IMG/VR virus record: IMGVR_UViG_3300028388_003667
Location: 1-23,071 of that record
Source: a virus
Reading direction: 5' to 3' (one strand)
DNA: 23,071 nt
Positions 769 to 20,473 of the stretch are shown in pieces. Under the pieces are notes generated by a model, which saw only the letters and a program-made list of their open reading frames with translations, made no database searches and was not told the origin of the DNA. Positions within the stretch are counted from its first letter, which is position 1. Each line of letters begins with the position of its first letter. The position numbers and the translations under genes are program-made.

Positions 769-2261
769 CGGTCCACTCCGGCATATCGGCGCTCTATGCC
801 CTCCACGGCGTTGTCGAAGAGGCCGTCCAGCGCGAAGTGATTGGAGAACGGCAGCGCCCATCGGAAGCGCCTCGGGTCGCCTTGCGCCGCCCCCTGAACC
901 GCGTTTCGCGCGACCGAAGGGCCTGCCCCGGCGAGGTTGAAGGCCGCGTCCGCCAGCGACACGTCTTGCTGGCCCCGGCGCATTTCCCACGGGAACGGGT
1001 TCTGCCCCGTGGTTCCGATCGCCGTGCCCTGCGCGAGGTGGCTGTACTGCGGAAGCACCCCCATGATCCCGGACTGGTCGATGGCCCGGCTCAACCTGTC
1101 TCCCGGCCCCATCTGGTCCCATGCGTAATCCGGGCTGCGGATCATCGAGACCATGTAGCCAAGGCCGACGAGGGCAGCGATGCCTCCGAGCTTCTGCGCG
1201 GAGGGCTCGTCCAGACCGGCGATGAGGATCTTGTTCGTCGCCGCCATGCCGTAGTTCCAGTACGCGAAGGGCAGGTTCATGAATCCGGATTGGACCCTCC
1301 AGAACTGGCCCACCTTCTCAAGCCCCAGCCTCTCCGCGTACTGGTCGGCGCGTCCCCCGGCCTTTATGAAGAAAACCCCGTCCACGATGGTCGGCTTGTC
1401 GGCCGCGGTGGCGAGGAGGATCGTGTTCTCGTTGCCCTGCCGGATCGCGGAACGGAAAGTCCGCACGAGGTTCTCGTCTCCCCATGCATCCGTGTTCGCG
1501 AGCCAGCCGCCGTTCACTTCCTCGACCGGCTGCTTCGCCATTGCCTGCGCCGTCTCGTAGTCGATCCCGAAGCGCGCGAGATCGGCCAGAACGTCCGGCG
1601 GGGCCTCCCGCCCAAGGTCGCCCACGATCATGATCTTCTCGACGGTGTCGGAGACCCGGAGACCGGCATCGAGGTCTTTCAGGATGCTGGTGACGGGGGC
1701 CAGACCGTTGAGGAGGAAGTAGCGGTTTGCCAGCGTCGTCATGCCCCTCTCGAAGACGGTGCCCGCGTTGCTGTCAATCCCGATGTCGGCGTGGCGGGAG
1801 AGAGCCCCGCCCATGATGATGTCGAGGTTCGCGCCCGCGCTGCGCATTTCCTTCGCCCCGGCCTTGATGACCTGGCTCAACTCCGCATCGAGCTGGCCGA
1901 AGGCGGCCTGCATGGTGCGGGATAGGCCGTGGCGCATTGCGACCGTGCCGATCTCCTGCATGGCCGGCAGGGCCGACATGCCCATGAAGGCCAGCTGCGA
2001 CCAGTTGCGGAGCTGCGTGGCGACCCTGTTGTCCCAGCGGTTCGGGTCGCGGATGACGCGGTTCGTCACCCGGTCCTTCATGTGCAGAAGATCCCGCTCT
2101 ATCAGCGCCCAATGGGCGTCGAAGTCCGATTCCTTCCCCAATGAGGTTAGGTTTTCCTCCCCCTCAATGCGGGCCATCACTTTGCCTGCCGCGCTTTCAT
2201 CCACCAGTCCTGAACAGCGAACGCATGTCCCATGCCGCTTTTTCAAGGGCTTTCCATTCAC
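765..2261 (-). CDS. Internal virion protein gp16-like, C-terminal part (frame-split)
   Basis: This is a 498-codon frame opening at a GTG (2261), but that start is probably not used. Its first ~20 residues look unlike coding sequence, there is no good ribosome site, and it overlaps the preceding frame by 65 bases. From about residue 25 it reads as a convincing core-protein C-terminus, with KDRVTNRVIRDP, an RNWSQLAFMGM-like helix, several Ala/Gly-rich amphipathic helices and a basic, aromatic end. Such C-termini in T7 gp16-type proteins form part of the ejected DNA-translocation tube. The stop overlaps the tail fibre start. It most likely completes the protein begun at 5935, needing a +1 frame change between about 2261 and 2199. 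Whether this fragment is made alone, fused or not at all cannot be told from the sequence. Confidence 0.7.
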   Translation of the reverse strand: MNGKPLKKRHGTCVRCSGLVDESAAGKVMARIEGEENLTSLGKESDFDAHWALIERDLLHMKDRVTNRVIRDPNRWDNRVATQLRNWSQLAFMGMSALPAMQEIGTVAMRHGLSRTMQAAFGQLDAELSQVIKAGAKEMRSAGANLDIIMGGALSRHADIGIDSNAGTVFERGMTTLANRYFLLNGLAPVTSILKDLDAGLRVSDTVEKIMIVGDLGREAPPDVLADLARFGIDYETAQAMAKQPVEEVNGGWLANTDAWGDENLVRTFRSAIRQGNENTILLATAADKPTIVDGVFFIKAGGRADQYAERLGLEKVGQFWRVQSGFMNLPFAYWNYGMAATNKILIAGLDEPSAQKLGGIAALVGLGYMVSMIRSPDYAWDQMGPGDRLSRAIDQSGIMGVLPQYSHLAQGTAIGTTGQNPFPWEMRRGQQDVSLADAAFNLAGAGPSVARNAVQGAAQGDPRRFRWALPFSNHFALDGLFDNAVEGIERRYAGVDR

Positions 2262-3714
2262 TCTCTTTAAACGCTCCTCGACTTTTTAGAGCATGGATTG
2301 CTTCATGGTTCAGTGTCGCGAGCGGATTTTTGAGATTTGGATTTATGAAAATCGTGTTGAGTTCTTTTGAGAACCCTCCATTTTTTCCGGCTCTTGTCTC
2401 GGCCTCTACGATAACATCGGCCAAGCCCAGCTCACGAAGTCTTTCCCTCGCCTTCGTGAGTATTTCTCGACTCAGCTCTACACCGGCCGCAGGGTTTTCG
2501 CTTTCATCTACCCTTGCTTTTGCCCTTGCCATCGCCTGATCGAAGCTTCTTCGGGTCTTTTCAATTCTCCCTCCTGCTATTCTTTTCGCCTTCTCCCACA
2601 TCTCCCTTTCCGCGCGCCGGGCGACCATCATGGCGTCCATAAAGCCGTCCGGGCCGCTGACCCCGTCCATCGGCCGCCCGAAGGTCCGGGCGAACTCGAT
2701 CGCCGGGGCCATGCGCGCCTCGTAGAGAGCGCCTACCCGGAGCGGGTCGGTGACGATGAAGTCGTCGAGGCCGTTGCCGTTCGGTCCTTCTCTCAGGAGG
2801 TGGCTGTTCGGGATGTCGAACTGGCGCTTCCGCCCAAAGGTCGGACGGTTGGCCTCGCGCAGCGTCGCCAGATCGGCGGGCTCTGCCTCCTCGAGGATTG
2901 TTTCGAGGATCTCGTCCGCCCGCTTCTCGATGTCCTCGGGTCGGGTGGACGCCTTCTCCCACTCGAACTTGGACTTCGCCGGGGCTGCGTCCCACTGCCT
3001 TTGCAGGGCGGCGAGGCGCTCGTCGAGGTTCGGCCCTCCCTGCCGCCGAAGGGTGTTCATCTTCATCGCGATCTCGTCGCGGCCTTCCTTGAAGACCTGC
3101 ACCCAGGGCTGGCGCACCATCCACGGCTTGATGATGTTTTCCTTGAAGTTTTCCCTGTTCGCGCGGATGGCGTCCTTGTTCCAGACGCGGGTGAAATAGT
3201 CCTCGGAGGGCTCGTTCGCGCGCGCCTGGAGGTCGATTTTCATCTCCTCGATCTTTGTCTCCGCCTCCGAGATTTCCTTCTTGAGCCTTTCGGCTTCCAT
3301 CCCGCGAGAGAGGATGCCCTGACCTTTTGCTCTCAGGTCTTTGCGCATCCGTTCCTTCGCCTTCTTGGCTTTCTCGCTCCTCGCCTCTCCGAAGTTGTCG
3401 ATTCGCCCCTTGAGCTCGGCTTCTTCCCCGGTCATCCGCGCGGCTTCCTTTTCCCTCTGGGAGAGCTGGGTGCGAAGACGGTTGAGGTTCTCCTCCTCCC
3501 GGATGATCCCTGCCCGGAAATTCTGGTTCGACTGGATGACGCCGTACTCGCGGGCCGGGCCCTCGAACTCCGAGTAGAAGCCCCGGATTGCCTCGGAGAG
3601 CTCGTTGACTTCCCCGATCTCGTCCCTGACTCCGGTGATCATCGCCTTGGTCGCGCGGGAGCGGAACTCGGCCACGGTAATCGCGGGCTCGCCGTTTGCC
3701 CGGTTCTTCTTCAT
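2197..3714 (-). CDS. Internal virion protein gp16-like, middle part with HEXXH protease-like module (frame-split)
   Basis: This 505-codon frame has an in-frame ATG at 3714 with an upstream AAGGAG. Convincing coding extends further upstream in this frame (ALYEAEGAAYEKYLGF, ~3806 to 3759), so the ATG need not be the true beginning. Residues ~85-180 are Lys/Glu-rich and coiled-coil-like. Residues 470-474 are HEAIH (bases 2293-2307), the zinc-metallopeptidase HEXXH signature, in a LATLNHEAIHAL context often seen in large phage virion polyproteins. A third zinc ligand is not obvious before the frame ends 31 residues later at a TGA. The last ~120 codons are much AT-richer than the rest of the operon. 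It probably belongs to one protein with the frames at 5935 and 2261. Peptidase activity is an inference from the motif alone. Confidence 0.65.
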   Translation of the reverse strand: MKKNRANGEPAITVAEFRSRATKAMITGVRDEIGEVNELSEAIRGFYSEFEGPAREYGVIQSNQNFRAGIIREEENLNRLRTQLSQREKEAARMTGEEAELKGRIDNFGEARSEKAKKAKERMRKDLRAKGQGILSRGMEAERLKKEISEAETKIEEMKIDLQARANEPSEDYFTRVWNKDAIRANRENFKENIIKPWMVRQPWVQVFKEGRDEIAMKMNTLRRQGGPNLDERLAALQRQWDAAPAKSKFEWEKASTRPEDIEKRADEILETILEEAEPADLATLREANRPTFGRKRQFDIPNSHLLREGPNGNGLDDFIVTDPLRVGALYEARMAPAIEFARTFGRPMDGVSGPDGFMDAMMVARRAEREMWEKAKRIAGGRIEKTRRSFDQAMARAKARVDESENPAAGVELSREILTKARERLRELGLADVIVEAETRAGKNGGFSKELNTIFINPNLKNPLATLNHEAIHALKSRGAFKESEWKALEKAAWDMRSLFRTGG

Positions 3715-5935
3715 CTCCTTGTTCCAGCGGAGCCCCAGCGCCGAGGGGTTCTCTCGGAAGCCGAGATACTTCTCGTAAGCCGCCCCCTCTGCCTCGTAGA
3801 GTGCGGAACTCTTCCAGCCGATCTTTCGCGGCCATGTCCGCCTTCAGGATCGCGGCGTTCTCCGCTGCGACGTCCTCGGGGTTCCGCGCCGCCCTGAGCG
3901 CGTCGGCTCCTCCGATCTCGGTTTCGAGCAGGCGCTTGAACTCGACGTCGTCGCGCGCCCTTGCGGCCATTTCCACGGCCTTCCGAACGAAGGCTTCGGC
4001 CTCGTCCACGTCCTTGAACGCGGAGGCGTTGACTCTCATCCGGCCCACCGGGCCCTCGACGCCATCGGCACGGCCTACCTCGATCTCGTTGCCTTCGTCC
4101 ATCGCCTTTTTGAGGGCATCCCGGTCGACGACGATGTTGCCCTCGGCATCGACCTTGGCCGCGTTCACCGGCCTCCTGTTCCAGCCGGCGTTCACCGTGC
4201 CCCGGTTCTCAACGCTGACGTAGCGTTTCAGGTTGGCGGTCTTGCCCGCCTGTTCCGCGCGGGACGCGGCGTAGGCAATCTCGTACTCCATCAGCTCGTT
4301 GGCCGATGTCGCCGGTGTGCCGTGATCGCCGGACTGCCAGCGTTCGAGGATGCGCTGCTCGTCGACGACCATCCTCCCGCCGCGGATCGCCACGCCGCGC
4401 GAGGCTTCTTCGTCGGTCAGCCCGACGAGACGGTTGTTCGAGCCCTGCATTTCGACGCGAGCTTTCACGCCGCCGATTTCGATCTCTCCCGAGGTCTTCC
4501 CGAGACCGCGCTCGAGAGCGACTTCGCGAAACGCCTTTTCGATCAACTGCCGCCTTGACGCCCGGCCCCCTGCCACGCCGAAGACGCCGCCGAGAAAGCC
4601 CCCGAAGGCGGTTCCCGCACTCACACGCATGAGGCTGTCCGCGGGGCTCGACATGGGGTCGAGGCTCGACCGGAGGCCCTCAGCGGGGATTTCGTAGGCC
4701 GCGACGGCTGTGCCGGTGGCGAGAGCAGACCGGGCGAAGTTTGCCCCGCCGCTGCGAAGGGCAGAGAAACCGATCGCTCCGGGGATCGCCAGGGAGACCA
4801 GCGTGTCGGGATTTGCCATCCCGCCGAGGAACTGCGCGCTGAAGAACTCCGATTCCGAACGCCGCCTCGATCTCTGCTCCTCGCGCCGGAAGGAGAGCAT
4901 CAAGGCATCGTAGTGCTCTTTCGAGCGCGCCTCGACAAAGTAGCGCCAGTGCCTTTCGAGGCCGTCCGCCTTTGCCTGCTCGACGGGGTCGAAGGAAGGG
5001 TCCCATGTGTGCTTGTTCGCTTCAGCCTTTCTCTGCATGTCACGGACGATGAAGCTGTCTGTCAGCTCGTCGACGAAGGTCTGAGACCACGACGGCGGAG
5101 CGACCGCGCCTCCCCCGGCGCCGGTTCTCGTGTTGTAGTCGACCGGCCCGCCCGGATCGGGATAGTCGTCCGGGCCGAGCTCACCGTCGTTTGAACCATC
5201 CGGCCACAATCCTTGCCGCGAGACGGAGGGCTTGTCCCACGGCGGCTTGTAGTCGATCTGCCCAAGAGGCGTGTCGTGCTGCTCTGCCATGCGGTTCCGC
5301 ATTCCCCCGAAGAGGTTGCTGGCTCTTCCCCGCATGGCCCCGGGAAAATTTGGCACGTCCGCCCCAGGCGTTCCGGTCGGCGCGAAGGCCGTGACGTCGA
5401 AGTTGGCGGGATCGGCCAGTGCGCCGTAGATCGCGTCCATCGACGTGTGCGCGGTCGACCTGTTGGAGCCCACGCCGCCGTAGTAGGCCTGTCCGGGCTG
5501 TATCCGCCGGCCGCGCGCGTCGTAGGTCGCCTTGAGGACCGGCAGCGAGGCCCATTCCTTGGCGAGGTTCGTGCCGAAGTCCTCGGTGGACATGCGCCCG
5601 GCGAGCCAGTCGTCGAGGCCGCGCTTGCGCAGAAGCCCGACCGCCAGCCGGTCCTGCGTCTCCTCGTTGAAGACGTCATCGAGGCCGACCGTGCCCTTCC
5701 TGACCTCCTCGGCCAGCGTGGTCTCGATCACCTGCAAGGCCCCGACCGCTTCGGAGTCGTACTTGTGGTCGATGCTTTTCTGCCACTTCAGGATTTCGCC
5801 CACGGTCATCTGGGTGATGGGCTTCGGCGGGTAGTCCGACCGACGGATCTTCCCGTAGATCACGTCGTAGTCCACGCGGCCCCCGTTCTCGGCACGGTAG
5901 ATCGTGTCGAGGAGGCCTTTAACCTGCTCGCTCAT
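2561..5935 (-). CDS. Internal virion protein gp16-like, N-terminal part with lysozyme domain (frame-split)
   Basis: The ATG at 5935 overlaps the upstream stop (ATGA) and has GAGG 7 nt upstream. Residues ~5-135 resemble lambda R-type transglycosylases. There is a candidate catalytic Glu16 in RAENGG, then YDVIYG, an AVGALQ segment and EWASLP at 127-132. This would open peptidoglycan locally during DNA injection. Residues ~370-460 hold Gly/Ala-rich hydrophobic stretches suited to membrane insertion. Authentic coding runs to about base 3825 (~residue 704). Beyond that the frame stays open to 2561 only as Arg/Gly/Pro-rich out-of-frame sequence, while the true protein continues in the next frame (+1). 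The join may be at the AAA of GCG-AAA-GAT (3824-3826) or the G5 run at 3783-3787. Domain names come from recalled family patterns. Confidence 0.75.
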   Translation of the reverse strand: MSEQVKGLLDTIYRAENGGRVDYDVIYGKIRRSDYPPKPITQMTVGEILKWQKSIDHKYDSEAVGALQVIETTLAEEVRKGTVGLDDVFNEETQDRLAVGLLRKRGLDDWLAGRMSTEDFGTNLAKEWASLPVLKATYDARGRRIQPGQAYYGGVGSNRSTAHTSMDAIYGALADPANFDVTAFAPTGTPGADVPNFPGAMRGRASNLFGGMRNRMAEQHDTPLGQIDYKPPWDKPSVSRQGLWPDGSNDGELGPDDYPDPGGPVDYNTRTGAGGGAVAPPSWSQTFVDELTDSFIVRDMQRKAEANKHTWDPSFDPVEQAKADGLERHWRYFVEARSKEHYDALMLSFRREEQRSRRRSESEFFSAQFLGGMANPDTLVSLAIPGAIGFSALRSGGANFARSALATGTAVAAYEIPAEGLRSSLDPMSSPADSLMRVSAGTAFGGFLGGVFGVAGGRASRRQLIEKAFREVALERGLGKTSGEIEIGGVKARVEMQGSNNRLVGLTDEEASRGVAIRGGRMVVDEQRILERWQSGDHGTPATSANELMEYEIAYAASRAEQAGKTANLKRYVSVENRGTVNAGWNRRPVNAAKVDAEGNIVVDRDALKKAMDEGNEIEVGRADGVEGPVGRMRVNASAFKDVDEAEAFVRKAVEMAARARDDVEFKRLLETEIGGADALRAARNPEDVAAENAAILKADMAAKDRLEEFRTLRGRGGGLREVSRLPREPLGAGAPLEQGDEEEPGKRRARDYRGRVPLPRDQGDDHRSQGRDRGSQRALRGNPGLLLGVRGPGPRVRRHPVEPEFPGRDHPGGGEPQPSSHPALPEGKGSRADDRGRSRAQGANRQLRRGEERESQEGEGTDAQRPESKRSGHPLSRDGSRKAQEGNLGGGDKDRGDENRPPGARERALRGLFHPRLEQGRHPREQGKLQGKHHQAVDGAPALGAGLQGRPRRDRDEDEHPSAAGRAEPRRAPRRPAKAVGRSPGEVQVRVGEGVHPTRGHREAGGRDPRNNPRGGRARRSGDAARGQPSDLWAEAPVRHPEQPPPERRTERQRPRRLHRHRPAPGRRSLRGAHGPGDRVRPDLRAADGRGQRPGRLYGRHDGRPARGKGDVGEGEKNSRREN

Positions 5936-6333
5936 TCATAGTCCTCGTCGATCAGTTGCATGATGATCCTCCGCGCGTCGCCCTCCTGGCCGCGCAGGTA
6001 GGCGTCCCAATATCGCCTCTGGACGTCCGCCATCGGCCCCTCGGGGTCGGCGTTGAGAACGCTCATCAGCGCGCTGGAGTAGCGCGCCTCGTCGATCCCG
6101 AGACGGGAGAACTCGTTGCGGGCGTCCCGGACGTCCTGAAAGTCAGCCCGGATGTCGAGCGTCTGCTCCAGCGGGAACAGCTTGCCGGTATGGTCCTTCA
6201 TCCAGACCCGGTAGGTCGGCGGAAAGCCCGTGCCCCGTTCGGGAACCAGCTTGTAGTCGCGCCCCGGCTTGAACAGATCCCAGCCGGTATCGAAGCCGGT
6301 GGCCCTGAGAATGTCGGGCTCCTCCGAGATCAT
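5932..6333 (-). CDS. Small structural-operon protein of unknown function (133 aa)
   Basis: The start is the ATG at 6333, which overlaps the TGA of the gp15-like gene (ATGA). A longer reading back to 6453 would add an Arg-rich tail that is only the shadow of the upstream gene. The protein begins MISEEPDIL, has aromatic/Gly motifs (GFDTGWDLF, KPGRDYKLVPERG, YRVWMKDHTG) in its first half and a helical, acidic second half ending QLIDEDYE. No family is recognised. It sits between gp15-like and gp16-like core proteins and is coupled to both by 4-base overlaps, so a role as a minor virion or ejection protein, or an assembly chaperone for the core, is a reasonable guess only. Confidence 0.75.
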   Translation of the reverse strand: MISEEPDILRATGFDTGWDLFKPGRDYKLVPERGTGFPPTYRVWMKDHTGKLFPLEQTLDIRADFQDVRDARNEFSRLGIDEARYSSALMSVLNADPEGPMADVQRRYWDAYLRGQEGDARRIIMQLIDEDYE

Positions 6334-8039
6334 CCGGGGGCGTATTCCGACCTCTCGACGCCAAGCATCGCGCCGCTTTCCGAAAACCTCCCCTCCATCG
6401 CGGCACGGGTCATCGCGAGGCTGTCTTCGAGGCTGTTGTCGGTTCTCAGCCACGTCTCAAGGAGCGTGGTCGCCATCCCCATCTGGCGCTCCCCCATCTC
6501 GATGTCGGACATGTTGGTGCCGATGAGCCTTCTCAGCTCGCCCTGTGCGGTCTCCTCGGTGATCCGGGTGTCTCGTCCCCACTCGCGGTTCTTCCTGTTG
6601 AGGAGGTCTGCGAGCTGCTCGTCGCCCCAATCCTGCCCTTCCAGTCCGTCCATGAGCCTGAAGGCTTCGCCAATGCTTTCGCTGGCAACGCCGCCGAAGC
6701 CGTGAAGCGCGGAGGCCAGCTCCATGACTTGCTGAACCCGCTCGGGAAGATCCCCGGTCATGTCGCGAACCTCGCCCCTGTTGTTGGGGCCCTCTTTCAG
6801 GTCGCGGTAGAGGAGGAACAGGTCAGCCGCTTCGTCCGAATCCCTGTAGGTGTCCAGCCGCCTGAACGCCTGCTCCAGCGACGTCGAGAGGTAGCCCACG
6901 TCTTTCGTGCGGCGCACGAGCCGGTGGCGCTGATCGGCGTTGAGGCCGAACCAGTCCTGCCACTGCATGGGCCTGCGCTGGCCGTCGGCCTCCAGCCCGA
7001 TGTCGTTTGCGTAGATGAGGTCGAGCGTGGCCTGCCGCTCTTTCGACTTGGTGGTGACGCCCTGCACCATGAGCGTCATGTCAGCGGCGGTCTGGTCCCT
7101 CTGGCGGATCGCCGTCGCCCTCTGGTTCGACGCGCTGAGGTACTGTCCCAGCCTGTCCGCCGCCACGGCGGCCATTTCATAGGACGGCTCGCCCGTGCGC
7201 GGATCTTCGAAGTATTTCATCAGCTCGGGGTCGCGCCCGCTGTTGAGCCGCTCGATCAGGCTGGCGATTTCCGCCGGGTCGTCCGAGTTGACGAGATCGA
7301 GGTCGCGGATCAGGCGCGCCGCGCCCACCTCCGCCCACAGTCCCCGCGCCAGCTCTTCCTTCTGGCCGGGCGTCAGGATGTGATCCTGGGCGTCGAAGAT
7401 GAAATCGAGGCTCTCGGCCATCGTCCGGGCGACGTCGTCGTTGCCGGCCCAGACCGCGTCGAGCGCGCGGTCCCGCCAGTTGTCGGTCATCACCGGGATC
7501 TGGCTGGTTTGGGTGGCGTCGGCCACTTGCGCGACGCGCCGCCCTATGGACAGCCCGGCGTCGACCATTTCGCCCTCGACCAGCCGGTCGAAGACACCCG
7601 CGTACTCGTCGGGAAGGTCCATCGCCATCCCGGCAATCCGGTCCTCGACATCCCGCTGGAACGCCTCGGGGTCGTACATGTTCGCGTTTTCGGCGTCCCT
7701 GATCTGCGCGCGGATCGCCGTTTGCAGCGCGTGGGTGTAGTGCTGCTCGATATTCTGGTTGTAGACCCGGGAGGCAATCCGGCCCATTCGGCCCTCGAGA
7801 TCCTCGGGTAGCTGCGGGAGGCCGTTGGGCCCGGTCGAGAAGACAGCGGCCTTGGCGAGGGCCTCGCCCTCCTCTGCGGCGGTCTGCGCCATGATCTGGC
7901 CGTAGTCGGCGGCGAGCCGGGCCATCATCTGGCCGTTCTGCTCCAGCACTCCGGTCAGCGGCGAAGTGTCTGCCGGTCGCCCACTCGGTGCGGCACGCCC
8001 TCCCGTCTGGACTCTCTCCCTGACCCTCGTGACCGGCAT
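6330..8039 (-). CDS. Internal virion protein, gp15-like (569 aa)
   Basis: The ATG at 8039 shares a base with the previous stop (TGATG) and follows AAGAGGAG at 9 nt spacing, a strong site embedded in the end of the upstream gene. The protein is almost entirely helical, rich in Ala, Gln, Arg and Asp, with no signal peptide or transmembrane segment. An N-terminal Pro/Ser tail (~25 residues) leads into repeated helices such as QMMARLAADYGQIM and RIASRVYNQNIEQHY. Size, composition and position between a gp14-like and a gp16-like protein match the gp15-type ejection protein, which in T7 forms the periplasmic part of the injection conduit. No catalytic motif is visible. The assignment rests on order and character, not on a diagnostic motif. 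Confidence 0.72.
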   Translation of the reverse strand: MPVTRVRERVQTGGRAAPSGRPADTSPLTGVLEQNGQMMARLAADYGQIMAQTAAEEGEALAKAAVFSTGPNGLPQLPEDLEGRMGRIASRVYNQNIEQHYTHALQTAIRAQIRDAENANMYDPEAFQRDVEDRIAGMAMDLPDEYAGVFDRLVEGEMVDAGLSIGRRVAQVADATQTSQIPVMTDNWRDRALDAVWAGNDDVARTMAESLDFIFDAQDHILTPGQKEELARGLWAEVGAARLIRDLDLVNSDDPAEIASLIERLNSGRDPELMKYFEDPRTGEPSYEMAAVAADRLGQYLSASNQRATAIRQRDQTAADMTLMVQGVTTKSKERQATLDLIYANDIGLEADGQRRPMQWQDWFGLNADQRHRLVRRTKDVGYLSTSLEQAFRRLDTYRDSDEAADLFLLYRDLKEGPNNRGEVRDMTGDLPERVQQVMELASALHGFGGVASESIGEAFRLMDGLEGQDWGDEQLADLLNRKNREWGRDTRITEETAQGELRRLIGTNMSDIEMGERQMGMATTLLETWLRTDNSLEDSLAMTRAAMEGRFSESGAMLGVERSEYAPG

Positions 8040-8530
8040 CAGCCCATGCTCCTCTTGAAGTAGTCCATCCGGCTCTCATCCTTGAGGCGGTTGTCCTCGT
8101 ACATCATGTCCGCCTTCTTCAACGTCCCGACCGCCGTCATCGCCCCGGAGAGGAAGGCCGCGCGGGAGTTGATCTTCCCCTGGATTTTCGCCATCGCCGC
8201 CTCCGCGCGCGCCGCCGACTTCTGGCTGTTCAGGTTCGTGTTGATCGCCTCGATGTTCTCCCGAAGGTTCTCCCGGTTGCCCTTGAGCACCGCCGAGAAG
8301 CTCTCGGGATCGAGGCCGGTGATCGCCATGGAGGCGATGTTCTTCCGGGCCATTTCCTCGAAGTCGCGGCGAAGGCCGGTCTCCGCGTCCCGCGCGTCCG
8401 CGGTCGCGAGGATCGTCCCGACTTTTATCATGCCCGCCTGGTAGTCGGCCTGCGCTCTCTGGTTTGCGCTTTCAGTGATTCCGCCGAGAAACGAGCTTCC
8501 GGCGCTGACGAGGGAGAATGGATCGCACAT
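8039..8530 (-). CDS. Internal virion protein, gp14-like (MCDP family, 163 aa)
   Basis: The ATG at 8530 has GGAGCG about 8 nt upstream and begins 12 bases after the tail tubular B stop. The protein starts MCDPFS followed by a short Ala/Gly/Ser-rich hydrophobic segment (~residues 7-20), then becomes helical, with GITESANQRAQADY and many Ala/Arg/Glu heptad-like stretches. Short-tailed phage core proteins of the gp14 class commonly begin MC(D/E)P plus a small hydrophobic segment. In T7, gp14 forms the outer-membrane portion of the ejection channel. The same opening is found in the 84-aa gene at 15905-16159, and the first 14 bases spanning the start are identical (ACATGTGCGATCCA versus GCATGTGCGATCCA, differing only at base 1). 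Confidence 0.75.
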   Translation of the reverse strand: MCDPFSLVSAGSSFLGGITESANQRAQADYQAGMIKVGTILATADARDAETGLRRDFEEMARKNIASMAITGLDPESFSAVLKGNRENLRENIEAINTNLNSQKSAARAEAAMAKIQGKINSRAAFLSGAMTAVGTLKKADMMYEDNRLKDESRMDYFKRSMG

Positions 8531-8542
8531 GCTCTGCGCTCC

Positions 8543-10813
8543 TCAGAAGTAGACGTTCATGGTGATGGCCCTCATCCCGAAGAAGCCCGGCTTGTCGTCC
8601 TCCATCAGGAGAGCGACCTCGCGGCCCCATTCCCCGATGTGATATTCCCGCCATTCGTCCACAGGGATCGCGGGACCGAGAAACTCGTAGTCGGTCGCGT
8701 CGAGAACTTCCTCTCCCGCGATCGTGCCGATGGTGGTCGTCATCCAGTGGACCTCGGCGGAGACGAGGCGCTGCATCTTGCCCGCCTTCGGGCCCTGTCC
8801 CGACGCCGCGCGCGGGGGAGACATTTCCATTAAGAACGGCATGTTGATCCCGGTGACGAGTTCGGCGGCAGGAGCGTCGAGCAGGATTGGCGCTCCCGCC
8901 GCCGCCTCCCCGCCGTACGTGCCGTCAAACACGTAGGAGACGGGTTGGTCCGTCCACGGCAGGGTCCAGCCGCTGGAGATCGGGGGGTCTGCCGTCTCGA
9001 CGCGCATGGCATCGAGCTCCGGCAAGGTGTCGTCGTCGACGAAGCGAAGGATTTCGTAGGTTCCGCCGATCAGGGCGCAGGCGTAGAGATCCCCGCCCAG
9101 GGTTGCGACGGAGCAGAACTTGTTTTCGCCCTCCAAGACCCAGCTCATCCAGCCGAAGCTGTCGTCCGACCGGGAGGCGTGCAGGACGAGAAGCCTGCCG
9201 CCCGTCTCGTTGCACCAGATCGCGTAGGGCATCGCCTCGCTTCCGGAGCCGGGGTAGAGCGTACTGTCACGCGGGTTTTTCACCCAATCGCTGATCGGTA
9301 TCGAGACGTCGTCCGCGCTGTAGCCCCCGGTGGAGTTGGGGCGCATTTCCCGGAGGCGCTTTCCGGTCTCGTCGACAAAGAAGACGCCGCCGTCGAAGAC
9401 CCGCGCAGTGGTGTAGGCCGCGCCGTGCTTGGTCCCGGAGGAGAGCACCCGGATGTTCTCCTGCCAGACCGGGTTCTCGGGGTTGCCGGGGACGAAGAAC
9501 TCGCCGTCCTCGGTCATCACGATCAGGTCTTGCTGGGAGACAAGATTGACGATCCGCCCGCCGTCGCCCACGCCGTAGAGCTGGATTGCGTCCGCCGGCC
9601 CGCCCTCGCCGGGGTCGAAGTTGTAGAGATCGTTCGGGGCCGAGGCCCACATGCCATCAGGGACCGACGCGGTCGAGGCCAGCCAGAGACGGCCCTCGTG
9701 GAAAGCCGCGGTCTGAGGCCAGCCGCGCGTCTCCGAGAAGACCTGCTCTTTCACCTGAAAGATCGGATCGACCCGGAAGCACAGCACGTCCGACCCGCCG
9801 AGAAGCGCGTCGTTTGTGGCGTTCACGTTCGCGATGATCTCGAAGTGATCGGCATCGACGATCCGCTCGACGGTATAGGTCGCTGCCGTTCCGCTGGGGG
9901 CGCCGTCATGGACAGGGGCCCCGGTCAGAAGACTCGACATCTCGTCGCTCGTCTCCGTGCTCAGTCCGGCGATGAAGACTTCGTCCCCGCGCTTCAGCTG
10001 GTGGTTGAAGTAGGCGACCTCCACCCGGTTCGAGCCTTTCCTGACCCAGAACGGATTGACTTCGAGCTTCTTGGCGACGTCGCGGTAGACCTTCACGTCG
10101 GCGGTGGTCCCGTTCGTGACAGCCGTGATCTCGATTTCCCCGTCGAGGAGGCGGAATCTCTGCCCGACATGGTCGGCGGTGAAGAAGCTCTTGTTCGACG
10201 TGACCGTCCCCGTACCCGCCGCCAGATTGCCCGCCGCCTTCCCGGTCGCGGTGACAAGGTGGGTGCCGATGCTCGTCGCGGCCCCCTCCGAGGTGTAGAT
10301 CGTCAGGTCGAAGCTCAGGTCTTCGTCGAAGACGCGGAACGGGGCCTTCAGCCGGGTCAGGTCTTGCGTCTTCTCGGGCGTCCAGTCTGTCTGGGCCGTG
10401 ACCCCGACTTCCGGGACCGTCAGCTCGACCGGCACATTCGTCCCGTCCAGCGTCAGGATCGTCTCGCCGTAGGTGACGAAGTCGACGAACCAGAGCGACG
10501 TGCTGTCCCACGGCCTGCTCCGCGTGCTGATCACGCTTCCGTCGGGTTCCCTGACCCGCATTTCCCCGTCGAGGAACAGAACGAGGTACTGGCGGGCATT
10601 GTTGATGGCCCAGGGCTCGATCCGCGCGAGGCCTCCTGCGTCGAACTTGTACTCGGTGCCCCAGCGGCGGCGAATGGTGCCGTCCGCCAGCACCATCATG
10701 TTCTCGGCGTCGCGCACGGAGGCGGGGTAGGCTTTCGTGTCCTGACGGACTCTCAGGCCGCCCTTTACCCGACCGAAGCGGAAGTTGGATCGGAAGTCGT
10801 GGAGGCTCGGCAT
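8543..10813 (-). CDS. Tail tubular protein B (gp12-like, 756 aa)
   Basis: The ATG at 10813 directly follows the TAA of tail tubular A, with GGGGG in the preceding gene as ribosome site. The N-terminus (NFRFGRVKGGLRVRQDTKAYP, then AENMMVLADGTIRRRWGTEY) is the recognisable opening of gp12-type nozzle proteins, whose family usually starts by describing a 'gg...R.D...Y..g...leN..v...G...rR.Gt' pattern. The remainder is beta-rich with Trp/Tyr/Asp repeats, consistent with a propeller-like fold. At ~750 residues it is close to T7 gp12 (794). The protein would form the distal nozzle of the short tail, contacting tail tubular A and the fibres. The gene is intact, with a normal codon pattern. Confidence 0.9.
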   Translation of the reverse strand: MPSLHDFRSNFRFGRVKGGLRVRQDTKAYPASVRDAENMMVLADGTIRRRWGTEYKFDAGGLARIEPWAINNARQYLVLFLDGEMRVREPDGSVISTRSRPWDSTSLWFVDFVTYGETILTLDGTNVPVELTVPEVGVTAQTDWTPEKTQDLTRLKAPFRVFDEDLSFDLTIYTSEGAATSIGTHLVTATGKAAGNLAAGTGTVTSNKSFFTADHVGQRFRLLDGEIEITAVTNGTTADVKVYRDVAKKLEVNPFWVRKGSNRVEVAYFNHQLKRGDEVFIAGLSTETSDEMSSLLTGAPVHDGAPSGTAATYTVERIVDADHFEIIANVNATNDALLGGSDVLCFRVDPIFQVKEQVFSETRGWPQTAAFHEGRLWLASTASVPDGMWASAPNDLYNFDPGEGGPADAIQLYGVGDGGRIVNLVSQQDLIVMTEDGEFFVPGNPENPVWQENIRVLSSGTKHGAAYTTARVFDGGVFFVDETGKRLREMRPNSTGGYSADDVSIPISDWVKNPRDSTLYPGSGSEAMPYAIWCNETGGRLLVLHASRSDDSFGWMSWVLEGENKFCSVATLGGDLYACALIGGTYEILRFVDDDTLPELDAMRVETADPPISSGWTLPWTDQPVSYVFDGTYGGEAAAGAPILLDAPAAELVTGINMPFLMEMSPPRAASGQGPKAGKMQRLVSAEVHWMTTTIGTIAGEEVLDATDYEFLGPAIPVDEWREYHIGEWGREVALLMEDDKPGFFGMRAITMNVYF

Positions 10814-16368: not shown

Positions 16369-16370
16369 TT
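16311..16370 (+). terminator. Intrinsic terminator pointing rightward, against the late operon
   Basis: The left arm GCCCCGGCCACCG (16311-16323) pairs with CGGTGGTCGGGGC (16350-16362) over 13 bp with one G-U pair. A 26-nt loop separates them, and C plus seven T (16364-16370) follow. The T-run overlaps the stop codon of the large terminase gene. On the minus strand the same hairpin has no U-tract, so termination is directional, for transcripts moving rightward. No plus-strand gene is visible to the left, so it may limit antisense transcription or end a small RNA. Confidence 0.65.
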
Positions 16371-17940
16371 ACCGAATCCCACGGCTGAGAATGGAGGACA
16401 TCCGCCTCTGCTTGCGTGTCCCGCCCCGGTCGAACACGTTCTGCTTGTACGTCGCCTGCACCTGCGCTTTCTGCGCGAGATCGCGGCCGATCAGGCGCTT
16501 TCCGTAGCCCATCCTCAGCATCATGTAGTGCTCGGCGTCCGCGACGTGGCTGTAGATCGACTTCTTGTCGACCTCCTCCCGGTCGGGGAGGTAGCAGTAG
16601 CCGCCCTTCTTCCCCGCCGCGAGGTAGGTGCAGGAAGGGCTGAGAAAGTATCCGGGCCTGCCGCCGTCGACGAGGGTGTTGATCTGCGTTTGCACCGCCC
16701 CCATCCGCACGTCCGGGTCGTTCGTCCACGCGGGCTTCACGTCGAGCCCCGCCGCCTTGAAGATCTGGAACGGCGTGCGGCCATCGACCTCCGACCGCTT
16801 CTCCGCCGGGTCTCCCGTCAGCACGATCTTGAAGTCGGGGTAGTGCGTCTGGATGTGCTTTTTCAGGATGTCAGCGAACTGGACCGTGTGCGTGTCGCGC
16901 GTCACCAGCTCGTCGAAAATCCGCACCTGCCCCCGAATGTCCTGCCCGAAGCAGGCTGCGGGCGTCAGACCCCAGTCGATCCCCACATGGATGATCCTCT
17001 GCTCGGGGTCGGGCCCGAACGGCTCGGCGGCGACGTGCAGGGTCTCGTTGAAGTCCCGGTAGACAGGGCGGCCTGCGAAGATCCTCCCGATCTTGTTCTG
17101 GAGCATGTTCCTGATCCAATCGCGTGTCTGCCCGTGCAGGAGCCTCTGGTAGTACTCCTCGTCCGTGTACTTGGCGTTCTCGCGCTCGGGATTGTTCCTG
17201 TACCCCTTCAGCACCCCCTCGCCGTCCATGACATCCAGCACTCCCGGCGGCTGGGTGAAGAACTTCCACCCCTCCGGGACCAGCAGCGACATGCGGTCCT
17301 CCTCCGTCATCCAGTCCGGAGGCTCTGCCTGCCCCGACATGATCGCCCACCAGTGCTCCTCGTCCGGCGCGTTCGTGTCCATCACCAGACAGGGACGCCG
17401 TGAGCCGCCCTCGATCTTCCTCGGGTAGCGGGAGAGCCGCGAGATCGCCGCCGTGACGATCTGGCGGTTGATCTCCCGCGCCTCGTTGATGAACGCATGG
17501 GTGAACTCGAAGGAGAGCAGCTTTTTCACGTCCTCCTCCCGGTCGAGGGCGAGGAACCAGACCTCGTTCTCGAGGTTCAGCTCGGGAATCCGCATGTCCT
17601 GGCGGAACGGCGCGCGCCACCGCACCTTCCCGAACTCCTGCTCCGGAAACCACTCCAGCCACGTCTTCATCGTGGTGGTCTCAAGCTGAGGCGTGGTGTT
17701 CCGGATGACGCATTGCCGAACCTTCTTCGGCCCGGTTCGCTCCTCCGGCGGCGTCTCCAGCGTTTCCCCCGCCGCCGCGTTCACCGTGTTGTGCTCAGAA
17801 AGGGCCAGCCGGAACATCTCTATGCAGCAGGCCACCGACTTCCCCGACCCGATCGGCCCCTGTATCCCCCGGACGAAAGACCCGTCTTGCATGAACTCCG
17901 AGAGAACCCGGCCATCCGGCGTGTAGTTGAGAGAGATCAT
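16369..17940 (-). CDS. terL: Terminase large subunit (523 aa)
   Basis: The start is the ATG at 17940, overlapping the upstream stop (ATGA). The longer frame back to 18081 only repeats the upstream gene in another frame. Walker A is GPIGSGKS at residues 28-35. The Walker B-like strand is THAFINEAREI, with Asn in place of the usual Asp before the catalytic Glu. The C-terminal RNase H-like nuclease shows its acidic triad in HVGIDWG, VLTGDPAEKRSEVDG and HVADAEHY. The protein packages DNA through the portal using ATP and cuts it at termini. The short N-terminus before Walker A is a feature of this podovirus group. The C-terminal tail is basic (TRKQRRMSS), as expected for the portal-contacting end. 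Confidence 0.93.
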   Translation of the reverse strand: MISLNYTPDGRVLSEFMQDGSFVRGIQGPIGSGKSVACCIEMFRLALSEHNTVNAAAGETLETPPEERTGPKKVRQCVIRNTTPQLETTTMKTWLEWFPEQEFGKVRWRAPFRQDMRIPELNLENEVWFLALDREEDVKKLLSFEFTHAFINEAREINRQIVTAAISRLSRYPRKIEGGSRRPCLVMDTNAPDEEHWWAIMSGQAEPPDWMTEEDRMSLLVPEGWKFFTQPPGVLDVMDGEGVLKGYRNNPERENAKYTDEEYYQRLLHGQTRDWIRNMLQNKIGRIFAGRPVYRDFNETLHVAAEPFGPDPEQRIIHVGIDWGLTPAACFGQDIRGQVRIFDELVTRDTHTVQFADILKKHIQTHYPDFKIVLTGDPAEKRSEVDGRTPFQIFKAAGLDVKPAWTNDPDVRMGAVQTQINTLVDGGRPGYFLSPSCTYLAAGKKGGYCYLPDREEVDKKSIYSHVADAEHYMMLRMGYGKRLIGRDLAQKAQVQATYKQNVFDRGGTRKQRRMSSILSRGIR

Positions 17941-18389
17941 CTGAGGCCGTGTCTCCTCGCCCGCAACCGGGCCCGGTGCAGCTCCTCCCGCTGCCATTTC
18001 GTGAGAGCCGCCATCACCTTGCGCGGCGCACCCCGGCTCACCTTGTACTCCGCGTGCGTTCCCGGCCCCGACCGGACGCACCAGTACCCGTCCATGTCAA
18101 AGAACCCCCGGTTGATCCCGACCTCCACCCGGAACAGAACCCCGCGTGGAATCCGATCAACCTCCGCCCGGTTGCGCGGCGCCCCCTTCGGCCCCGTCTC
18201 CTCCCGGTGAAACGGAACCTCCTCCGGTTCCGCCTCGGAAGGATAGAGATCGGGATAAAGCCGCCGCATCCGGTCCCGATCCACGACACCGCCAGGCCGA
18301 ACCCCCCGCTCCGCAGGCTTGTTGATCGGAGAGGGCTGAGAACGATCCACAACCGGCCTTGTCTCTATCCTGCGAAAGAAGCCGCTCAT
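17937..18389 (-). CDS. Unknown protein upstream of large terminase (150 aa)
   Basis: The start is the ATG at 18389, overlapping the previous stop (ATGA). A longer frame to 18671 has a Gly/Ser-rich tail that is a shadow of the upstream gene. The N-terminus is MSGFFRRIETRPVVDRSQ. The middle is Arg/Pro/Glu-rich (residues ~20-70). Residues ~75-115 look folded, with GVLFRVEVGIN, GFFDMDGYWCVRSGPGTHAEYKVSRG. The last 30 residues are strongly basic and helical (KWQREELHRARLRARRHG). No family is recognised. Its stop overlaps the large terminase start, so it is co-translated with it. The basic tail suggests nucleic-acid contact, which is inference. Confidence 0.7.
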   Translation of the reverse strand: MSGFFRRIETRPVVDRSQPSPINKPAERGVRPGGVVDRDRMRRLYPDLYPSEAEPEEVPFHREETGPKGAPRNRAEVDRIPRGVLFRVEVGINRGFFDMDGYWCVRSGPGTHAEYKVSRGAPRKVMAALTKWQREELHRARLRARRHGLR

Positions 18390-18709
18390 CCCCAACCCTT
18401 CCGAATGCAGAGACGCCGGTACTTCGCAAGGTTCACGATGTGAATCCGGAGAACATCCCCATCCCCCTCCCAACCCAGAACCTCCGGACCAACCTCCTTC
18501 ACCACCTGATCGACCTCCCGGACACTCCGGCACCCGTTCAACCGATCCCGAATCTCCTGAGCGCGCTCGATCAGCCCCTTGTGGCGCTCCCAAGCCGCCG
18601 CCTCTTCCGCCGTCATCTCCATAACCCAACCAGACATCGGTCGCTGCCCTCCCTCCGTCCAACATGAGCAAAACTCATAATCCCCGCAACAATCTTCAAT
18701 CCGCCTCAT
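18386..18709 (-). CDS. Unknown protein with N-terminal Cys cluster (107 aa)
   Basis: I prefer the ATG at 18709 (MRRIEDCC). The alternative ATG at 18769 lies inside the direct repeats and has no ribosome site, but it is in frame and would add 20 residues. Residues 7-16 hold CC-x5-C-x-C (Cys 7, 8, 14 and 16), a compact cluster that could bind a metal. The rest is helical (MEMTAEEAAAWERHKGLIERAQ), with a REVDQVVKEVGPEVL segment and a basic end (KYRRLCIRKGWG). No family is recognised. The stop overlaps the next start (ATGA). A 13-bp perfect dyad, ACTCGTCACGAGT, sits at 18715-18727, five bases upstream of the start, and could regulate transcription or translation. Codons near the start are AT-richer than those of its neighbours. 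Confidence 0.6.
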   Translation of the reverse strand: MRRIEDCCGDYEFCSCWTEGGQRPMSGWVMEMTAEEAAAWERHKGLIERAQEIRDRLNGCRSVREVDQVVKEVGPEVLGWEGDGDVLRIHIVNLAKYRRLCIRKGWG

Positions 18710-18714
18710 ACTCC

Positions 18715-18727
18715 ACTCGTCACGAGT
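18715..18727. promoter_or_regulatory. 13-bp dyad, operator-like
   Basis: The perfect inverted repeat ACTCGT-C-ACGAGT ends five bases before the ATG of the Cys-cluster gene and adjoins its GAGTGGAG ribosome region. It is more suited to a dimeric protein than to an RNA hairpin, because the loop would be one base. Confidence 0.4.
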
Positions 18728-18748
18728 AACAGCAGAGACCGCTCCAAA

Positions 18749-18856
18749 AACTCCGGGATGCCTTTGCATTTTGTCAGGGTGGGCACAGCAGAACTCCGGG
18801 AGTGCTCTGCATTTTGTCAGGGGGAAACTCCGGGGCCCTTCTGCATTTTGTCAGGG
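18749..18856 (+). repeat. Three 31-bp direct repeats (iteron-like)
   Basis: The unit is AACTCCGGG-N8-GCATTTTGTCAGGG, with an invariant 17-base offset between the starts of its two conserved blocks. Copies lie at 18749-18779, 18792-18822 and 18826-18856. On the minus strand each copy carries ATG-CAR followed two codons later by CCC-GGA-GTT, encoding M-Q-x-x-P-G-V. In copies 3 and 2 this opens mini-ORFs of 9 and 12 codons. In copy 1 it is in frame with the Cys-cluster gene. They lie between the small terminase gene and the rest of the late operon. Confidence 0.85.
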
Positions 18857-18937
18857 TGGGCCGGGTCGCCTGTCACACGCCGACCTGTTTTTCCCCCACC
18901 CCCCCCTGTCACCTGCCTCTACCGAAAAGTTCTCGGC
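18857..18937. other. Non-coding spacer with C/G-homopolymer tract
   Basis: It holds CCTGTCAC twice (18869-18876 and 18905-18912) and a C5-A-C8 tract at 18893-18906, which is G8-T-G5 on the minus strand. The tract is able to pause polymerase or take an unusual structure. No gene is seen. Confidence 0.45.
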
Positions 18938-19396
18938 TCAATCGTCCTCGTGGTCTATCACTTTGGCCGAGTCCACCCCTTGGCCCAGGTTGATGCTCAC
19001 CTGCACGGGTCTTGCTGACCCTGCCTGTTGCGCCTGCCCCTTGCTGGCGTCGCCCATCATCCCGAGCCTTTCGGCCCTTGAGAGGATGGCCTCCGCGGCC
19101 TTCTCCCGGACCAGTTCGCTCTTCGCCTCGAGCAGTCTCTCCTGCGTCTTGAGAGCCCTGCTCACAAGGGTTGCGTAGCTGGATTTTGCCCCGGCGAGCA
19201 CCGCCTTTTGCCCGCGTTCTGACCGTAGGAAGACGCCGAGCGTGTTGCTATTGGAGTATCCTGCTTGCTCTGCGATCTCTTCTGTTGAGAGGTCGCCTTG
19301 TATGTAGAGGTGGATTGCGAGTTGCTGTCGTTGAGTCAGGCCGAGGTCGTCGAACTCTTTGACAGCTGGGAGGTCGCGTGGTTCTTCGGGGGTCAC
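18938..19396 (-). CDS. terS: Terminase small subunit (152 aa)
   Basis: The preferred start is the GTG at 19396, preceded by AGGCGAG at 8 nt and lying 13 bases after the previous stop. A GTG at 19447 would overlap the upstream gene by 38 bases and has no ribosome site. Residues ~21-60 (TQRQQLAIHLYIQGDLSTEEIAEQAGYSN) form a helix-turn-helix, followed by GVFLRSERGQKAVLAGA. This is the usual DNA-recognition domain of phage small terminases. A helical oligomerisation region (~70-115) and a flexible Gln/Gly/Ser C-terminus with an acidic end follow. It recognises the packaging start site and presents DNA to the large subunit. The direct repeats 80 bases downstream are an attractive target. The call is by domain plan and context. 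Confidence 0.78.
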   Translation of the reverse strand: MTPEEPRDLPAVKEFDDLGLTQRQQLAIHLYIQGDLSTEEIAEQAGYSNSNTLGVFLRSERGQKAVLAGAKSSYATLVSRALKTQERLLEAKSELVREKAAEAILSRAERLGMMGDASKGQAQQAGSARPVQVSINLGQGVDSAKVIDHEDD

Positions 19397-19409
19397 TTTG
19401 TGGTCTCGC

Positions 19410-19634
19410 CTAGGACGGAGGGAACGGAGTTCCCGAGGTCTTTGCACGGCATTTGGCTTTTGTCTCGCCTACGGCCACGTCGGGGTCGCTTGCTTTCGCT
19501 TTGCTCTTTCCCTTGAGCGGCGATGGTTGGCCTCCGGCCCCCTTGCCCCCGGTAGAGAGAGGATTTGGCGTTTCTCCGCCTCTGTCAAGTGAAAGATATT
19601 CATGATCTGGCGGGGTTTCATGAGGCTGGCTCAT
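19410..19634 (-). CDS. Unknown Lys-rich protein, first gene of the late operon (74 aa)
   Basis: The ATG at 19634 has GGGGGAG at 8 nt, a strong site, though part of it can pair into a leader hairpin. The protein is hydrophilic and looks disordered: MSQPHETPPDHEYLSLDRGG, then Gly/Pro/Lys-rich segments (PLKGKSKAKASDPD) and a TPFPPS end. No family is recognised and the composition is low-complexity, so the ribosome site and its placement 13 bases before the small terminase start are the main support. A second frame, ATG 19621 or 19603 to TAG 19469, overlaps it and encodes a 44-50-residue basic peptide in frame with the small terminase. Either or both could be used. Confidence 0.5.
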   Translation of the reverse strand: MSQPHETPPDHEYLSLDRGGETPNPLSTGGKGAGGQPSPLKGKSKAKASDPDVAVGETKAKCRAKTSGTPFPPS

Positions 19635-20236
19635 GTTAGCGTCTCCCCCTGAAGGGGGCCGGGCTACTCGGGCTAAAGCCCCGAGCCCCAGCGAGCTGGG
19701 TCTCGGCAATACTGCGAGTATCCCTGACGCGGGACAGGGAGAGGGGGAGGCGCGCTGTCGCCTGCCTTGTCGATTCCCGGGAACCCACTCGTGGGCGGCC
19801 TCACCTCCTCGTCGACGGCCTGTTCCCGGCAATCGTCTGCGTTGGCGACTGAGAGCAGTTGCGCGAGGGCGAACGACCCCACGGCCTTCCGGCCTCTTCG
19901 GGGGTGTTCGCTGAGAGGGCGGTCGTCTCCGACCGGCGATCCCCTGCGTGCCTGCCACCTTGTTCCAAGGCTGGCCTGGCCCTTGGGGCTCGTCGGCCGG
20001 TTCCTTCCTGATCTCTGCCTGGCTGGCGACCAGCACGCACACACACACGAGCTGGATCGTAACCTGCAGTTGGCCTCCCAATTCGCGCCGCCTCAAGGAT
20101 CGCGACTTTTCCCGAGTGAAAAGCCGCGCCCGGGACCAGTCCCGGCTTCGTCCTTGACCCGGCACGAATTGAGACGCGGGGACTTCGCACGATCCACGCC
20201 CGTTGCGTGGGCGCCAATCAGAAACGGAGACACCTG
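19635..20236. promoter_or_regulatory. Divergent regulatory region between late and rightward operons
   Basis: About 600 bases separate the leftward and rightward operons. Open frames exist but have shadow-like composition and no ribosome sites. No clear sigma-70 promoter is visible in either direction. For the leftward side there is a 13-bp dyad ATACTGCGAGTAT at 19709-19721 and three adjacent hairpins. For the rightward side there are stems at 20106-20123 (CTTTTC/GAAAAG), 20130-20145 (CCGGGAC/GTCCCGG) and 20194-20210 (CCACGC/GCGTGG), the last ending 26 bases before the first start codon. A short CA run lies at 20038-20050. Both operons probably start in this region. Confidence 0.55.
19645..19700 (-). 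promoter_or_regulatory. Structured 5' leader of the late operon
   Basis: On the minus strand three hairpins follow one another: CCCAGC/GCTGGG (19687-19700), CTCGGG/CCCGAG (19667-19685) and CCCCC/GGGGG with a 4-base loop (19645-19658). The last one takes up most of the GGGGGAG ribosome site of the 74-aa gene. This could lower translation until the structure is opened. Confidence 0.5.
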
Positions 20237-20473
20237 ATGACCAAGCTAGAGAACATCGCCAGTTACGACCCGACCGACGACATCATCGCCCGGATCGACG
20301 CGGAGCGGGAGTTCCTCCGCCTTTCCGAGAGCCTGATGGAGTACGACGACATCGACTACCAGGACGAGATCGACCGCAGGACATGCGGCTACCCGCCCAA
20401 GCCGCTCCTGACCACGCGGGAGAACCTCAACGCCGAGCTCGAGCTCGTCCTCGACGACACCATCCCGTTCTGA
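20237..20473 (+). CDS. Unknown acidic protein, first rightward gene (78 aa)
   Basis: The ATG at 20237 has GGAG at 7 nt spacing; an earlier in-frame ATG at 20207 has none and falls in a leader hairpin. The protein (MTKLENIASYDPTDDIIARI...) is acidic and helical in its first half, with EYDDIDYQDEIDRRTCGYPPKP in the middle and an acidic ELELVLDDTIPF end. No family is recognised. It is separated from the next gene by 15 bases containing AAAGGAAAG. Small acidic proteins at the front of a phage early operon often act on host enzymes, but nothing here shows a specific target. Confidence 0.75.
   Translation: MTKLENIASYDPTDDIIARIDAEREFLRLSESLMEYDDIDYQDEIDRRTCGYPPKPLLTTRENLNAELELVLDDTIPF

Follow-up and report, generated by a model that had tools for sequence, protein, structure and literature searches.

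To our knowledge, the recognition sites of small terminase (TerS) proteins are known in detail for very few phages. In lambda, cosB carries three R sites and is flanked by cosN on one side and the 5' end of terS on the other; a study cited in PMC4856287 (reference 25 there) reports the cut at 47±2 bp from an R site. HK97, whose TerS is oligomeric, requires a single A-tract-containing site of 15 bp that sits 15-29 bp away from the cut (PMC11331095). Pac sites of the P22/SPP1 type lie in or beside terS, that of P22 inside the gene itself, and the cohesive end of P2 (GGCGAGGCGGGGAAAGCAC) consists of a G-run followed by an A-run.

The window analysed here is the whole of a linear 23,071-bp IMG/VR fragment (IMGVR_UViG_3300028388_003667), so searches for further copies within it cover only part of the phage genome. 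Its late genes are carried on the minus strand in the order terS, repeat array, small late genes, terL, portal, scaffold, capsid and tail, and the array occupies non-coding DNA separating terS from the remainder of the late operon. The genes flanking the array are:

18938 to 19447, minus strand: terS, small terminase of 169 aa (PHROG terminase small subunit, E=3.4e-8)
18386 to 18637, minus strand: small late gene following the array, with 18637 as its probable start and a product of 83 aa (GC3 0.72, GGAGGGAGGG upstream of the ATG)
17937 to 18386, minus strand: late gene between terS and terL encoding a GFFDxDGYWCV protein, with homologues in the corresponding position of relatives (42-55%, measured on the C-terminal half)
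16369 to 17937, minus strand: terL, large terminase (PHROG terminase large subunit, E=4.6e-20; 58-69% identity in IMG/VR and Rhodobacteraceae relatives, 56-69% over the phages used for comparison)

The AF2 model of TerS has a helix-turn-helix at residues 39-75 (pLDDT ~90), long helices at 77-127 and a disordered C-terminus. In other TerS proteins the helical region serves oligomerisation. The top Foldseek matches are all weak and comprise the phage protein 2ao9, NV1 TerS and Sf6 TerS. Elsewhere in the window, the stretch of ~760 bp that separates terS from the first early gene on the plus strand (19448-20206) carries no convincing coding frame, and a large internal-protein frame (5935-2561) overlaps a long open frame (3714-2197, open back to 3843) within 2197-5935; the former looks out of frame past ~3,800, suggesting a frameshift, real or from assembly.

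The repeats themselves bear out most of what the first-pass annotation had described. Three precise 31-bp direct repeats stand beside the small terminase gene, all matching the pattern AACTCCGGG-N7-TGCATTTTGTCAGGG with zero mismatches, and the copy spacings of 43 and 34 bases are correct when measured start to start; the fixed offset between the two blocks, given as 17 bases, is actually 16 between block starts (9 + N7). The copies are:

18826 to 18856, minus strand: repeat copy 3, with the putative ancestral core CCCTGACAAAATGCAG, then N7, then CCCGGAGTT
18792 to 18822, minus strand: repeat copy 2, exact 31-bp pattern, candidate extra core
18749 to 18779, minus strand: repeat copy 1, exact 31-bp pattern, candidate extra core

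A search of the rest of the 23-kb window at up to three mismatches yielded no further copy, and none of 100 dinucleotide shuffles reached three matches. All block positions are invariant (24/24) and nearly all spacer positions vary (6/7; Fisher P ~1e-5, a rough figure given that the three copies are related). This pattern points to selection acting on the blocks, within the small sample of three copies in one array. Two extra TGTCA cores, at 18871 and 18907, are present as claimed but have no conserved counterpart in relatives; the plus strand has few TGTCA occurrences (18 in 23 kb), and five within ~140 bp represent a mild enrichment. Coding sequence does not account for the array, as had been stated: the ATG at 18769, which would make copy 1 coding, lacks a Shine-Dalgarno sequence and opens a frame with GC3 of 0.42, and the alternative start at 18637, which has one, is favoured. 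The longer 127-aa version of that gene's frame gave no family match.

Relatives were collected through TerL. The search returned 31 IMG/VR loci, most at 58-69% identity, and four loci in bacterial genomes, three of them from Rhodobacteraceae (family assigned from genus names); a search of 395 host-family genomes gave nothing beyond the two prophages already known. The 31-bp array is absent from all TerL loci; in 26 relatives, an exact search of the DNA ahead of terL likewise gave no copy of the repeat. When the DNA behind terS is read in each relative, a conserved stretch emerges that the first-pass annotation had overlooked: a non-coding element of ~65 bp directly 3' of terS, adjoining the array and located at 18906-18840 on the minus strand of the window. 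On the sense strand it runs from a G-tract through A5, ~20 nt and GACCCG to the core TGACAAAATGCAG. The G-tract is interrupted by one to three bases, and the core reads TATAAAATGCAG or GACAAAATGCAG among relatives. In the window the element reads GGGGGGGGTGGGGGAAAAACAGGTCGGCGTGTGACAGGCGACCCGGCCCACCCTGACAAAATGCAG, and its final part is repeat copy 3, so that copy 3 is the element's right half. The remaining parts are:

18887 to 18906, minus strand: G-tract and A-run, the element's left part (GGGGGGGG-T-GGGGG-AAAAAC), conserved directly 3' of terS in aligned relatives; candidate cleavage region
18862 to 18867, minus strand: GACCCG box, exactly 20 bp 5' of AATGC; GACCC is invariant in 14 aligned sequences

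The geometry of this element is fixed. GACCC and AATGC are exactly 20 bp apart both in the window and in the compared relatives, although L028, which lacks AATGC, gives 21 with the motif substituted for it, and the G/A junction lies 43-47 bp from AATGC throughout. The element is present in every related marine or alphaproteobacterial virus in which the stretch behind terS was readable, just 3' of terS in every locus read, and exactly once in each of the 20 relative records matching the pattern. A TerS-profile search added divergent elements in L120/L121 (E=3e-8) and L123 (E=4e-7), the last with a second, degenerate core 47 bp further on; L033 has a weak look-alike. The relaxed element pattern found no match in BcepC6B, Cronobacter Ss1, Pelagibacter Hodr, VA-RY-3 or Pmp11, neither the region nor the element had a blastn match among named phages, and no description of the element was found in the literature. 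In IMG/VR, the pattern TCCGGG...TGCATTTTGTCA had two single-site matches without an array, which were treated as chance.

The element is also retained in L028, in the Fertoeibacter prophage and, despite different downstream genes, in the Rhodobacteraceae prophages L037 and L038. Between terS and terL, L037 carries glycosyltransferase and sulfotransferase-family genes (4900-10000) and L038 further uncharacterised genes (6500-10000), and the spot beside the element looks like an insertion hotspot. In L028 (contig 3300028423_000593), TerL (3990-6491) is split at Walker A (GPIG/CLAGDA...) by an in-frame insert of ~290 aa that matches a Pfam intein splicing domain at E=8.5e-6, below the curated cut-off. 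The same contig has AT-rich direct repeats (ACTTTACAAATTTACA) at 1841-1885, in the divergent early/late region on the upstream side of terS.

A profile HMM built from 13 relatives, with the window excluded, ties the repeats to the element. Its top match in the window is 18904-18840, which takes in copy 3 (E=1.2e-7, 26.4 bits), and the best score over 200 Markov-shuffled windows is 8.6 bits. The lower-ranked, sub-threshold matches (ranks 2-4) include 18822-18805 in copy 2 (rank 3-4) and 18782-18761 in copy 1 (rank 2-4). A broader profile that adds three divergent relatives, the window still excluded, gives E=7.2e-10 and places copies 1 and 2 at ranks 2 and 4. Because copies 1 and 2 appear among the profile matches, the simplest reading of the repeats is that a family-wide core has gained two additional copies: the core TGACAAAATGCA would be triplicated in the window phage, and the array would be the multiplied right half of the family element. 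Relatives carry one core (L123 with its degenerate second), and the second repeat block (CCCGGAGTT, minus strand) is not evident in them. Conservation in relatives thus holds for the core-bearing element, single-copy and at fixed spacing 3' of terS, and fails for the 31-bp array as such.

Confinement of the array to the window phage would also fit neutral, lineage-specific copies without function, beside a core conserved through overlap with the start of the next gene as an RNA element or translation signal. In several relatives the ATG in AAAATGCAG is indeed the first codon of the next reading frame (MQPKSYLC), and part of the conservation there could be coding. The element is nevertheless kept where that frame is absent or broken (L028, L038 and the window), so coding conservation cannot explain those three. 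As for an RNA element, a covariation check of three predicted pairs found compensatory changes in none, and there is no Rfam match; neutral duplication is at odds with blocks that stay invariant while the spacer varies and with the independent second core of L123. Conservation through coding or RNA, with functionless copies, is therefore judged highly improbable.

Transcriptional control offers another reading, in which the element would act as the one conserved promoter or operator of the late genes that follow terS, and the repeats as operators in tandem to which an activator or repressor binds. In the direction of transcription the element does stand between terS and the remaining late operon, and some relatives have TATAAA at the core. 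In the window and in L032, L056, L090, L120 and L123, however, TATAAA is replaced by GACAAA and the -10-like letters are lost, and no sigma-70-like promoter (-35/-10 hexamers, 16-18 bp spacing) occurs in 18600-20250. Control of this kind leaves the G-tract and the 20-bp GACCC spacing unexplained, and terS itself is upstream of the element. The first-pass annotation had taken copies throughout the genome, upstream of many genes, as the mark of promoter-like repeats. A set of promoters for a phage RNA polymerase does not emerge either: the window holds no copies outside the array, and the four longest relative records (33-40 kb) each contain a single high-scoring element. The presence of just one copy per genome also counts against transcriptional control; a single-copy late promoter or operator remains the strongest rival, although an unlikely one.

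Arrays built on a similar core occur in unrelated phage contigs. Four to six copies of CATTTTGTCA, often ~42 bp apart, are found in L042 (6040-6260), L043 (3995-4275), L045 (1736-2010) and L046 (near 7436-7488), near an HTH_36 gene and, in L043, with DnaD-like similarity. They look like iteron or operator arrays whose core is nearly the same as that of the window repeats. Tandem GCATTTTGTCA was likewise found in nine IMG/VR stretches without any window-phage genes; several of these arrays stand beside HTH_36/DnaD-like genes, and all were treated as unrelated. The position of the CATTTTGTCA arrays upstream of DNA-binding protein genes lends something to transcriptional control, and their spacing next to HTH_36/DnaD-like genes lends something to a replication origin, with the repeats as iterons for an initiator protein or the G-tract and AAAAAC as an R-loop primer site. 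A G-run followed by A5C does stand on the transcribed sense strand, as in ColE1-type origins, a resemblance that serves as a lead only. Against a bidirectional origin, GC skew is monotonic past the element in three long relatives (G019, G025 and G029); the prophage G022 differs, its skew turning close to the element at a point where the genes may change direction as well. Relatives have one core and no iteron set, and the neighbours examined were terS and late genes, with no replication gene identified among them. An origin at this locus is consequently rated very unlikely.

Judged from sequence, the array and the element together are probably the terminase recognition site (cos or pac) of this phage family. 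Such a site is expected to be a single non-coding locus per genome adjoining terS, and this is what the element is. Of the packaging-initiation site that the first-pass annotation had suggested, the conserved, single-copy non-coding element at fixed spacing 3' of terS speaks in favour, and the lack of conservation of the 31-bp array itself speaks against. Analogy with known systems suggests the core as the TerS site and the G-tract/A5 segment as the cut region. The neighbouring gene's product, TerS, taken as an oligomeric helix-turn-helix protein, would recognise the core TGACAAAATGCA on concatemeric DNA, and the GACCCG box, two helical turns from the core, is probably part of this recognition. 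TerS at the core would anchor TerL, which would cut in or near the G-tract/A5 segment ~45 bp away, and packaging would then proceed from the core side toward terL and the head genes. Each of the other two cores comes with a new CCCGGAGTT block and might serve as an extra TerS-binding site, functionally like the three R sites of lambda cosB. TerS binding, the position of the cut, the direction and the choice between cos and pac are what we infer here.

One close likeness is to the R sites of lambda cosB with cosN: three copies, TerS-sized and asymmetric, beside the terminase genes and on one side of a putative cut region, with ~45 bp between G/A junction and nearest core in the window, close to the 47±2 bp reported for lambda. 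The two differ in that the element of the window and its relatives lies 3' of terS and that relatives carry just one core; sequence similarity is not assumed. The single-core state of relatives resembles the HK97 cos site, a single short A-tract site beside the cut region, although in HK97 the site is 15-29 bp from the cut and the window TerS is distant by profile (6w7t, E=0.49). The element shares a place next to terS with P22/SPP1-type pac sites, but adjoins the gene, whereas P22 pac is inside it. The G-run and A-run of the P2 cohesive end resemble GGGGCGGGGGGAAAAAG of the Fertoeibacter element, a low-complexity likeness for which homology is not claimed. Function like that of a terminase recognition site is partly supported; the locus is kept apart from lambda-type cosB, since it stands on the other side of terS and its binding by TerS is a prediction.

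Several observations weigh against packaging. About 25 contigs run intact through the element, which headful packaging from a P22/SPP1-type pac would equally explain, and only L114, a contig added by the TerS-profile search, ends inside the G-tract. This one end among ~26 terS contigs is only suggestive, and a hard-to-assemble G-tract could also cause it. The Fertoeibacter contig also breaks near the element, but the apparent start of an insertion-sequence transposase (recognised by eye) follows ~130 bp beyond it, so this break is no evidence for a DNA end. With spacings of 43 and 34 bp, the copies are not separated by an integral number of helical turns. Whether the core reads GACA or TATA shows no obvious correspondence with the predicted TerS recognition helix; L032 and L016 differ in their cores although their predicted helices are almost identical.

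The locus might represent a packaging site of an undescribed type, with G-tract/A5, GACCCG and an A-tract core between terS and terL, in which some lineages multiply the TerS core from one to three; this wider interpretation is tentative. If it is true, a cut between terS and terL would leave the two genes at opposite virion ends, and the family would form a natural series leading from a single-site ancestor to a multi-site cosB. Its closely comparable phages carry one core, a degenerate second or three, all of a shared type and set at a constant distance from the conserved G-tract, and they bear on the contrast between the three R sites of lambda and the one short site of HK97. The family includes prophages in named hosts (Poseidonocella sp. 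HB161398 and Mangrovicoccus algicola), and the element would offer a sequence handle for locating packaging start sites in uncultured marine phages.
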